33,831 nt of DNA, from the NCBI GenBank assembly GCA_015486315.1, contig WFRY01000330.1:1-33831 (forward strand), written 5' to 3'. Source of the DNA: Desulfobulbaceae bacterium (GTDB lineage Bacteria > Desulfobacterota > Desulfobulbia > Desulfobulbales > Desulfobulbaceae). Shown here piece by piece: positions 4,064-19,304 of this stretch (its first letter is position 1; each line of letters begins with the position of its first letter). The position numbers and the translations under genes are program-made. A model generated the notes under the pieces. The model saw nothing but the letters and a program-made list of their open reading frames with translations, did not search any database and was not told where the DNA came from.

Positions 4064-4266
4064 GTAACTATTCAGGAGCAGCTCACGGAGTCTGCGCTTA
4101 CCTCTTCACCCATTTAAACCCTCTCGAGTAGCATAAGTACGCTTCGCGGTCTTAAATGAACAGGTAGATAAGCGAAGACTTCGAGCGTAGACTCCGAATC
4201 TAAGGCACTCCCGAACAGTTACAGGCTGGTGGTATTGCCAATGTATTTTACTACCTGAAGAGTTAC
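4064..4266. mobile_element. MITE, family A copy 1 (203 bp, 8-bp target duplication)
   Basis: The element begins GTAACTATTCAGGAGC and ends CTACCTGAAGAGTTAC, which are imperfect inverted repeats. It is flanked by the perfect direct repeat GAAAAGAG at 4056-4063 and 4267-4274. Inside, a long hairpin is built from CCCATTTAA and TCTTAAATG and extended by arms GGAGTCT and AGACTCC that copy 2 lacks. An inverted copy of the end (CCCGAACAGTTAC) finishes at 4222, 44 nt before the outer end. It carries no ORF. GTAA ends and 8-bp duplications are features of the IS66 family, so an IS66-type transposase is the likely mover (inference). It lies between the divergent als-like and AAA-ATPase genes. Confidence 0.88.
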
Positions 4267-12423: not shown

Positions 12424-12571
12424 GTATGCGCAACTACACTCTTAACATAACAACACCACGGAATGTAAGCGTTTCAGGAACGCCCTGCTGTGCGTGATCA
12501 AGTCCCCCGATAATACCCCTGTATATCTGGGGACTTGAGCGCGTGCAGCAGGGCGTTCATGGAGCGCTTAC
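12424..12571. mobile_element. MITE, family B copy 1 (148 bp, near-perfect long palindrome)
   Basis: The 107 bp from 12465 to 12571 form a giant hairpin: GTAAGCGTTTCAGGAACGCC matches the inverse of the right end (ATGGAGCGCTTAC), and arms TCAAGTCCCC and GGGGACTTGA lie inside. Aligning it with the copy at 19162-19304 in reverse orientation extends the left side to about 12424 (GTATGCGCAACTAC). The flanks TCTTTTTA and TCTTTACC agree in 5 of 8 positions, suggesting a decayed target duplication. It ends 3 bp from the stop of the transporter gene, in a convergent gap where its hairpin could act as a two-way terminator. The left boundary is approximate. Confidence 0.75.
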
Positions 12572-14738: not shown

Positions 14739-15619
14739 GCTGTAATCTCCGTGCCGATGCCCTTATGGGTGAAAATTTCCAGCAGAATGGCATGCTCCTG
14801 CCGACCGTCGACAATATGTGCCTTGCCCACACCGCCGTGAGTAACCGACGCGCAGCAGCGAAGCTTGGGAATCATGCCGCCCTGGATCACACCTTCATCA
14901 ATCATCTGCTCGATGGACTGCCCGGCAATGGATGACAGGAGTTGTCCATCACCGTCCTGTACGCCCTCCACATCAGTAAGCAGAATCAGCTTGACGGCAT
15001 TCAGCTCTGCAGCGATTGCTCCGGCCACAAGATCTGCATTAATATTATAGGCCTGGCCGTCTTCACCTACCCCCACAGGTGCGATGACCGGAATAAAATC
15101 TTCGGCATCCAGGGTCCGGAGGATTTCCGGGTTTATCCTGGTCACTTCACCCACCCGGCCCAGGTCAATGAGTTCCGGCGGTGCATTTTCAACCTCGGGT
15201 CTGCTTAAAATCTTCATCTTCCGGGCCTGGACAAGATCCCCGTCCCGGCCGGAAAGCCCTACGGCCTTACCGCCGCAATGGTTGATCAGGCCGACAATCT
15301 CCTTGTTCACCTTACCGACCAGTACCATCTCAACCACATCCATGGTCTCGCCATCCGTGACCCGCATTCCCTGGATATAGTTGGAGGTAATCTGCATCTT
15401 TTCCAGAAAGCGGTTAATCTGCGGACCGCCTCCGTGAACTATTACCGGATTAAGGCCAATATATTTGAGCAGGATCACGTCCAGGGCAAAACTTTTTTTA
15501 AGCGCTTCATCCACCATGGCGTGACCACCGTATTTGATCACCACGGTTTTTTCATTAAACTCTCTAATATACGGCAACGCCTCTATCAGCACCTTGGCCT
15601 TGGCTATTTCTTTCTCCAT
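14735..15619 (-). CDS. argB: Acetylglutamate kinase
   Basis: Phosphorylates N-acetylglutamate with ATP, the second and often arginine-inhibited step of arginine biosynthesis. The amino acid kinase fold is recognised from [10 protein letters not shown] near residue 26, [20 protein letters not shown] and [12 protein letters not shown]. The track start (15676) would add 19 residues, partly encoded by the MITE upstream. The ATG at 15619 gives [18 protein letters not shown], the usual family start, with GGAG eight bases before it, for 295 residues. The N-terminal helix is of the kind present in arginine-sensitive hexameric enzymes. First gene of argB-argD-transporter. Confidence 0.95.
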
Positions 15620-15643
15620 TCCCTGTACTCCAATACAATTATT

Positions 15644-15795
15644 GTAACTATTCAGGAGCACCTCATCTTCGCCCATTTAAGCCTGCTCGAGTAGCACTAG
15701 TACACTTCACAGTCTTAAATGAACGAATCTAAGGCACTCCTGAACAGTTACAGGACGGTGGTTTTGCAAGTTTTCTGCACCACCTGAATAGTTAC
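15644..15795. mobile_element. MITE, family A copy 2 (152 bp, 8-bp target duplication) in the argB leader
   Basis: Begins GTAACTATTCAGGAGC and ends CACCTGAATAGTTAC: the outer 13 bases are perfect inverted repeats. The flanks are the perfect direct repeat CAATTATT (15636-15643 and 15796-15803). The internal hairpin uses CATTTAAG and CTTAAATG. An inverted end copy (CACTCCTGAACAGTTAC) finishes at 15751, then GGTGGT and ACCACC form a small hairpin before the outer end. It shares most of its sequence with copy 1 at 4064. It lies 24 bp upstream of the argB start and downstream of the argB promoter candidate, so it should be transcribed in the argB-argD leader. Confidence 0.93.
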
Positions 15796-15819
15796 CAATT
15801 ATTATATATAAAATCTAAA

Positions 15820-15849
15820 ATTATACCCACCCTCTGGCCGTCTTGTAAA
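15820..15849 (-). promoter_or_regulatory. Sigma-70 promoter candidate of argB-argD
   Basis: On the minus strand TTTACA (15849-15844) and a consensus TATAAT (15825-15820) are separated by 18 nt. The predicted start near 15812 lies just outside the MITE and its duplication. No ARG-box-like operator was recognised. Confidence 0.6.
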
Positions 15850-18729: not shown

Positions 18730-19176
18730 ATGGTACAACTGGAAGGCGAATGCATAATTCCTGAACTGGAATCAAGCGGCAAAGAAGCTGTGCTGCGGGA
18801 ACTTGCGGAGACCGTGCATCATAAATGCACATTGATCGATATCGACACCCTGTACACAGTTCTGACGGAACGTGAACAGCTTGGTTCCACCGGAGTCGGC
18901 AATGGCGTTGCCATCCCGCACGGCAAGGTAAGCGGCCTGGAAAAACTGCTGCTCTGTCTTGGCCGCTCCAGGACCGGGATCAGCTTTGATGCCGTGGACA
19001 ACCGGCCTGTTCACCTCTTTGTGATGATCCTCTCGCCGCCGGGCATGGCCGAAGAATACCTGCAGACCCTGGCCAGGGTGAGCAAACTTCTCAAAGATGA
19101 CAATATAAGAAACAAATTCCTGCAGGCAGCAGATGTCGAGACTATCCTGGAACTGTTCAACGGAAGCGCTCCATGA
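18730..19176 (+). CDS. ptsN: PTS IIA-like nitrogen-regulatory protein PtsN (EIIA-Ntr), C-terminus altered by MITE insertion
   Basis: A phosphoacceptor of the nitrogen-related phosphotransferase system (PtsP-Npr-PtsN), generally regulatory. The phosphorylated His is His64 in VAIPHGKV. Other family stretches are LGSTGVGNG and LFVMILSPPGMAEEYLQTLARVSKLL. It lies 12 bp after rpoN; hpf, often between them, is absent. The last codons GGA AGC GCT CCA TGA belong to a family B MITE whose 8-bp duplication begins at 19154. Beyond the element the old frame is still readable: the duplicated TGTTCAAC continues as CGC TCA TAA. The original protein therefore probably ended ELFNRS, and now ends ELFNGSAP. Function is unlikely to be lost. 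Confidence 0.93.
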   Translation: MVQLEGECIIPELESSGKEAVLRELAETVHHKCTLIDIDTLYTVLTEREQLGSTGVGNGVAIPHGKVSGLEKLLLCLGRSRTGISFDAVDNRPVHLFVMILSPPGMAEEYLQTLARVSKLLKDDNIRNKFLQAADVETILELFNGSAP

Positions 19177-19304
19177 ACGCCCTCAAGTCCCCCGAATACA
19201 AGAGGGTATAACCAGGGGTCTCGCTCACGCACAGCAGGACGTTCCTGAAACGCTTACATTCTGAAGTGTTATCAAGTCAAGAGTGGCGTTAATGACGCAC
19301 TTAC
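19162..19304. mobile_element. MITE, family B copy 2 (143 bp, 8-bp target duplication) inserted in the 3' end of ptsN
   Basis: Flanked by the perfect direct repeat TGTTCAAC (19154-19161 and 19305-19312). The left end GGAAGCGCTCCATGAACGCC and the inverse of the right end, GTAAGTGCGTCATTAACGCC, agree at 16 of 20 positions. An internal inverted end copy (GTTCCTGAAACGCTTAC) finishes at 19257, 47 nt before the outer end. It is homologous, in reverse, to 12424-12571 (shared ATGAACGCC, CAAGTCCCC, CACAGCAGG and CCTGAAACGCTTACATTC). It has no ORF. It supplies the stop codon of ptsN and separates it from the convergent DAHP synthase gene. Confidence 0.92.

Follow-up and report, generated by a model that had tools for sequence, protein, structure and literature searches.

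A miniature inverted-repeat transposon with IS66-type ends in the argB-argD leader, probably transcribed as an RNA hairpin

Positions 15644 to 15795 of the window (the whole 33,831-nucleotide stretch of DNA that was analyzed) are a noncoding miniature inverted-repeat transposon (MITE) in the leader of the arginine-synthesis gene argB, and the argB message very probably carries, judging from the sequence, a transposon-derived RNA hairpin. The explanation that best accounts for the whole, and in which we have high confidence, is that of an IS66-type MITE that is transcribed with argB, leaves translation in place, and most likely has a modest effect at the RNA level. A nonautonomous IS66-family element with ISBst12-type ends would have moved into the argB leader in this lineage and landed downstream of the conserved argB-argD promoter but ahead of the argB Shine-Dalgarno sequence, with duplication of 8 bp. 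Transcription would begin ∼18 nt before the element and pass through it, and the argB-argD mRNA would gain a small hairpin and a long, ∼108-nt hairpin, both made by the MITE. In the open-access papers searched, we found no IS66-derived MITE in an argB leader or in this bacterial group. The locus offers a natural before-and-after comparison, with a hairpin-forming transposon in the leader of a biosynthetic operon, the same promoter and Shine-Dalgarno sequence, and MITE-free relatives.

The insertion and its surroundings

Read on the forward strand, the ends of the element are GTAACTATTCAGG (15644 to 15656) and CCTGAATAGTTAC (15783 to 15795), a perfect inverted pair (13 of 13 positions), and direct reading gives an exact 8-bp duplication, CAATTATT, on both sides (Table 1). 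This agrees with the earlier note, which had described perfect 13-bp outer inverted repeats and the same sequence flanking both sides. The 152-bp element is short and has neither a transposase gene nor a coding frame of its own. In the argB sense, its parts are ordered as the outer terminal inverted repeat (TIR), a small hairpin formed by GGTGGTGCAG and CAAAACCACC, an inner TIR-like repeat (GTAACTGTTCAGG), the long hairpin, and the distal TIR; the long hairpin is closed by pairing of the inner repeat with the distal TIR. Its shortness, lack of coding capacity, perfect TIRs, fixed 8-bp duplications, dispersed copies, and absence from the site in relatives bear out the classification as a MITE (copy 2 of family A in the earlier note).

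Table 1. Coordinates of the MITE, the argB-argD operon, and related features in the window
Feature	Position	Strand	Remark
MITE, 152 bp	15644..15795	(-)	folding sense (tandem TIR at 5' end) is the argB mRNA strand
Outer TIR GTAACTATTCAGG	15783..15795	(-)	
Distal TIR GTAACTATTCAGG, argB side	15644..15656	(+)	
Inner TIR-like repeat GTAACTGTTCAGG	15738..15750	(-)	45 bp inside outer TIR; pairs with distal TIR in long hairpin
8-bp target-site duplication CAATTATT, promoter side	15796..15803		
8-bp target-site duplication CAATTATT, argB side	15636..15643		
Predicted long hairpin of transcript, ∼108 nt	15644..15751	(-)	covarying stem
In-frame upstream ATG within MITE	15674..15676	(-)	would add 19 residues to ArgB; in hairpin stem
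-35 hexamer TTTACA, argB-argD promoter	15844..15849	(-)	aligned in 15/19 family genomes
-10 hexamer TATAAT, argB-argD promoter	15820..15825	(-)	18-nt spacer
Predicted transcription start	15813	(-)	approximate, ∼7 nt after -10; placed from promoter position
Shine-Dalgarno GGAG	15628..15631	(-)	kept as TTGGAGT/CTGGAGT in several close relatives (G001, G004, G009)
argB, 294 aa, PF00696	14735..15619	(-)	stop overlaps argD start (ATGA)
argD, aminotransferase class III, PF00202	13536..14738	(-)	
Second family copy, 203 bp, duplication GAAAAGAG	4064..4266	(-)	upstream of TPP-enzyme gene

The site TTTACA-18-TATAAT (15849 to 15820) is the only sigma-70-like site on the minus strand between 15000 and 16600 and scores 11 of 12 against TTGACA/TATAAT. 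The argB ATG, at 15619, stands exactly 24 nt beyond the MITE. The earlier note had likewise placed the only good minus-strand promoter outside the element and the ATG 24 bp past it, and relatives support this arrangement. argB was found in 30 of the 32 relatives searched, and GTTTACA-N17/18-TAnnnT occurs upstream of it in 15 of 19 family genomes; the best promoter score averages 10.0 in argB upstream regions, compared with 7.9 in shuffled ones. Transcription might start at or downstream of the MITE, or from a promoter within it, which would leave the element outside the message. The argB start is placed by prediction, and an AT-rich duplication adjoins the MITE, but the sole minus-strand promoter-like site near argB lies outside the element and is conserved in those 15 genomes, and we judge such a start to be highly improbable.

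A comparison of argB leaders in related strains, as proposed in the earlier note, supports transcription through the inserted element. In G001 and G004, the only same-genus genomes whose leader could be read, the promoter is present with an N18 spacer and the MITE is absent. Here 200 nt separate the -10 hexamer from the ATG, versus 43 nt in G001 and 89 nt in G004; removal of the MITE and one duplication (160 nt) leaves 40 nt, near the G001 value. The Shine-Dalgarno context, which lies outside the MITE, is TTGGAGT here, in G001, and in G009 and is CTGGAGT in G004. Because the promoter is conserved and the Shine-Dalgarno sequence is intact outside the element, we place the insertion between the promoter and the ribosome-binding site; given the overlap of argB and argD (ATGA), it affects both genes.

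Because MITE copies coincide with many contig breaks, the assembly at argB has to be taken on trust. A chimera at this locus is argued against by the exact duplications and by the divergence of argB and lptA as in G004, where the two genes are separated by the same promoter region, making the locus syntenic. In same-genus G004 (L083; G004:C256), the argB match is split in two, with residues 1-113 on one strand and 91-180 on the other, a pattern that suggests an inverted duplication or a fault of assembly. In another genus (L063, G015), the -10-to-argB distance is also long, at 204 nt, and includes a GC-rich hairpin unrelated to the MITE.

The MITE family and its probable mobilizer

Similarity searches identified ∼40 recognizable homologous copies in the same genome (3.75 Mb, 485 contigs, 89% complete), in which the 13-mer GTAACTRTTCAGG occurs exactly 180 times, versus 0 times for a reversed control pattern. 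The end motif also occurs often in other genomes of the genus and in a second genus of the family. This genome, together with three related genomes, yielded 57 distinct elements. Identical 8-bp flanks were found in 53 of the 57 and flanks differing at one position in the other 4; end pairing demanded a flank match of at least 7 of 8 positions, so 53 of 57 should be read as a tally rather than as an unbiased rate. Despite this filter, dozens of perfect 8-bp matches are not due to chance. Element sizes are mostly 150 to 203 bp, with short forms of 60 bp and 80 bp, and the subfamilies keep one plan despite a further paired insertion and largely different arm sequences. The 60-bp form (L048:602-661), an internal deletion that retains a perfect 8-bp duplication (CTTCATAT), suggests that movement may require no more than the ends. 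Contigs C32, C54, C100, C120, C298, C338, and C404 of G000 are among the many that start at MITE copies; the family thus fragments the assembly and hides further copies.

The MITE was very probably mobilized by a member of the single-ORF ISBst12 group of IS66, to which it is assigned because its ends and duplication length agree. Scanning 84,980 species genomes with a 477-aa relative from L098 as the query yielded 80 loci; the complete ones have ends GTAACTATTCAGC (the commonest) or GTAACTACTCAGC and 8-bp duplications, and L241 carries GTAACTATTCAGG at one end. Pfam assigns the protein to DDE_Tnp_IS66. Within the same bacterial family, L095-L097 are IS66-type elements that end in GTAACTACTCAGC, are flanked by 8-bp duplications, and have a single transposase frame. 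The MITE end matches GTAACTATTCAGC at 12 of 13 positions and has G at position 13, where most autonomous ends have C. ISDge4, a published member of the ISBst12 group, is bounded by GTGACTACTCAGCA/GTAACTGCTCAGCA and flanked by an 8-bp duplication, CCTCGATG (PMC12898284). The likeness to this group lies in the terminal repeat, GTAACTA(T/C)TCAGC versus GTAACTATTCAGG in the MITE, and in the 8-bp target duplications of both autonomous elements and MITE. ISBst12 elements are 1.5 to 1.7 kb long with a single ORF, whereas the MITE is 152 bp, is without a transposase gene, and has no internal similarity that we could see. These data document a high-copy MITE family and tie it to a little-studied group of IS66.

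Other candidate parents were rejected. None of the four IS66 matches in the same genome has the ends of the MITE, and the long-type IS66 elements of relatives (L085-L087) have GTAAGCGC ends. The search for a close ISBst12-type transposase found none in the 89%-complete assembly, and the same genus yielded only a fragment (L107/L242; G003), so the actual mobilizer is one that we infer. A cognate transposase in the same genome is not a defining feature of MITEs. A second family of hairpin repeats, with GTAAGCG...CGCTTAC ends that resemble the ends of the long-type elements, is present in the window at 12465-12571, at 19175-19257, and from 30104 onward; no 8-bp duplication was seen at 12465-12571.

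Folding of the family on one strand

Of 53 oriented copies, 52 fold more stably on the argB-sense (tandem-TIR) strand than on its complement, by a mean of 12.5 kcal/mol, and the consensus fold has −40 kcal/mol on the sense strand versus −19.5 kcal/mol on the complement. Examples of such strand-specific folding are the element at argB (window 15644-15795, minus strand), L161:1528-1679, and L145:1478-1665. The argB leader happens to contain the MITE in the folding sense. Over all copies, arm mismatches comprise 255 G.U and 100 A.C, counted on a stem alignment that treats the two alike, and the G.U excess recurs in every subfamily representative examined. Among 17 diverse copies, the 32 pairs of the consensus stem are kept in 97.8% of cells, 15 pairs have changes on both sides, and the covariation score is 0.403, versus 0.167 in shuffles. 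All of these counts on one-sided folding overstate the evidence, as the copies share ancestry, RNA energies were used to predict the sense structure, and arms may be exchanged in palindromes.

Based on the compensatory stem changes across subfamilies and genera and on G.U mismatches mainly on the sense strand, the family could be read as having been shaped as RNA on one strand, with a transcript that matters for survival or movement. We regard this as rather unlikely. The G.U excess may alternatively derive from common ancestry of the wobbles, from arm-to-arm conversion in the palindrome, or from strand-biased deamination, and fresh stem substitutions (10 keeping pairing and 5 breaking it) are too few to tell selection and deamination apart. 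We also looked for an orientation bias of copies relative to genes, which would have pointed to a host function, and found none (32 sense and 32 antisense at gene 5' sides); this speaks against a general host function. The one-sided wobble pairing does provide a way to test for RNA-level selection on bacterial MITEs.

The predicted leader RNA and its consequences for argB

With a start near 15813, the argB leader is predicted to be ∼194 nt long, 160 nt of which would come from the insertion, versus ∼34 nt without it. Folding, which the earlier note had suggested, predicts a strong structure: the argB-sense strand of the MITE has a minimum free energy of −73.6 kcal/mol, compared with −36.9 kcal/mol in shuffles (standard deviation, 3.95; z, −9.3), and the opposite strand has −50.1 kcal/mol. 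The transcribed, folded leader put forward in that note gains support from the copies with target duplications, the MITE-free relatives, and the family-conserved promoter, from which we infer transcription. In an Rfam search of the window at the gathering score, the only match was a tRNA, and the MITE corresponds to no known Rfam RNA family.

Two of the effects that the earlier note had raised, on termination and on translation, found no support. Intrinsic termination is not supported, as the argB-sense strand has no terminator-like site and no U-tract. Blocking of translation is not supported either: the predicted mean unpaired probability of the Shine-Dalgarno/ATG region is 0.41 with the MITE versus 0.38 without it, and opening a 21-nt segment there costs 5.1 to 5.7 kcal/mol versus 4.2 to 5.6 kcal/mol over 18 end choices, a shift of at most ∼1.3 kcal/mol. 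Because the MITE ends short of it, the native Shine-Dalgarno sequence and start codon would be kept, about as accessible as before, and with no terminator created, translation of ArgB should continue. It is very improbable that the in-frame ATG within the MITE is used instead and gives ArgB 19 additional residues. The open frame does run from 15676 into argB, and MITE reading frames fused to proteins are known elsewhere (PMC2229807), but this ATG sits in the stem of the long hairpin behind a weak Shine-Dalgarno sequence, whereas 15619 has the one common to close relatives and is where homologues start.

The third effect raised, a change in mRNA stability, is possible by analogy with known elements, as is a change in processing by RNase III-type cleavage. 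The likeliest consequence of the insertion would be that an RNase III-type enzyme cuts the long duplex or that mRNA stability shifts modestly. It is very unlikely, in our view, that the MITE, rather than being tolerated, has been co-opted to regulate argB-argD (as an attenuator, switch, or stability device). The strong covarying fold of the transcribed strand and the long leader of a biosynthetic operon would suit a regulator, but the MITE is absent from both readable same-genus argB leaders, lies beside many unrelated genes with 5' sides evenly split between the two orientations, creates no terminator, and hardly changes Shine-Dalgarno accessibility. The best reading, based on these predictions, is an ordinary, largely tolerated and perhaps nearly neutral insertion that would create a possible RNase III substrate.

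Transcribed MITEs with effects on mRNA are known from other bacteria. The Correia elements (NEMIS/CREE) of Neisseria alter mRNA and are cleaved by RNase III (PMC10969869, PMC2649163), which could serve as a model for the MITE at argB. Both are short, noncoding MITEs with a long terminal duplex that are transcribed with neighboring genes (as predicted for argB), but Correia elements have other ends and another target duplication, and we saw no promoter in the argB MITE. ERIC elements of Enterobacteria and Yersinia, also hairpin-forming MITEs, carry an RNase E site and affect mRNA in an orientation-dependent manner (PMC2229807); they differ in sequence and ends and act through that site on the upstream message, whereas the argB MITE lies in a 5' leader. 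BOX and RUP of Streptococcus pneumoniae, presumed to be moved by host insertion sequences (PMC3049150), are unrelated in sequence and insertion sequence family, and BOX is modular, but they resemble the argB MITE family in their high copy number, tight folding, and position in untranslated leaders.
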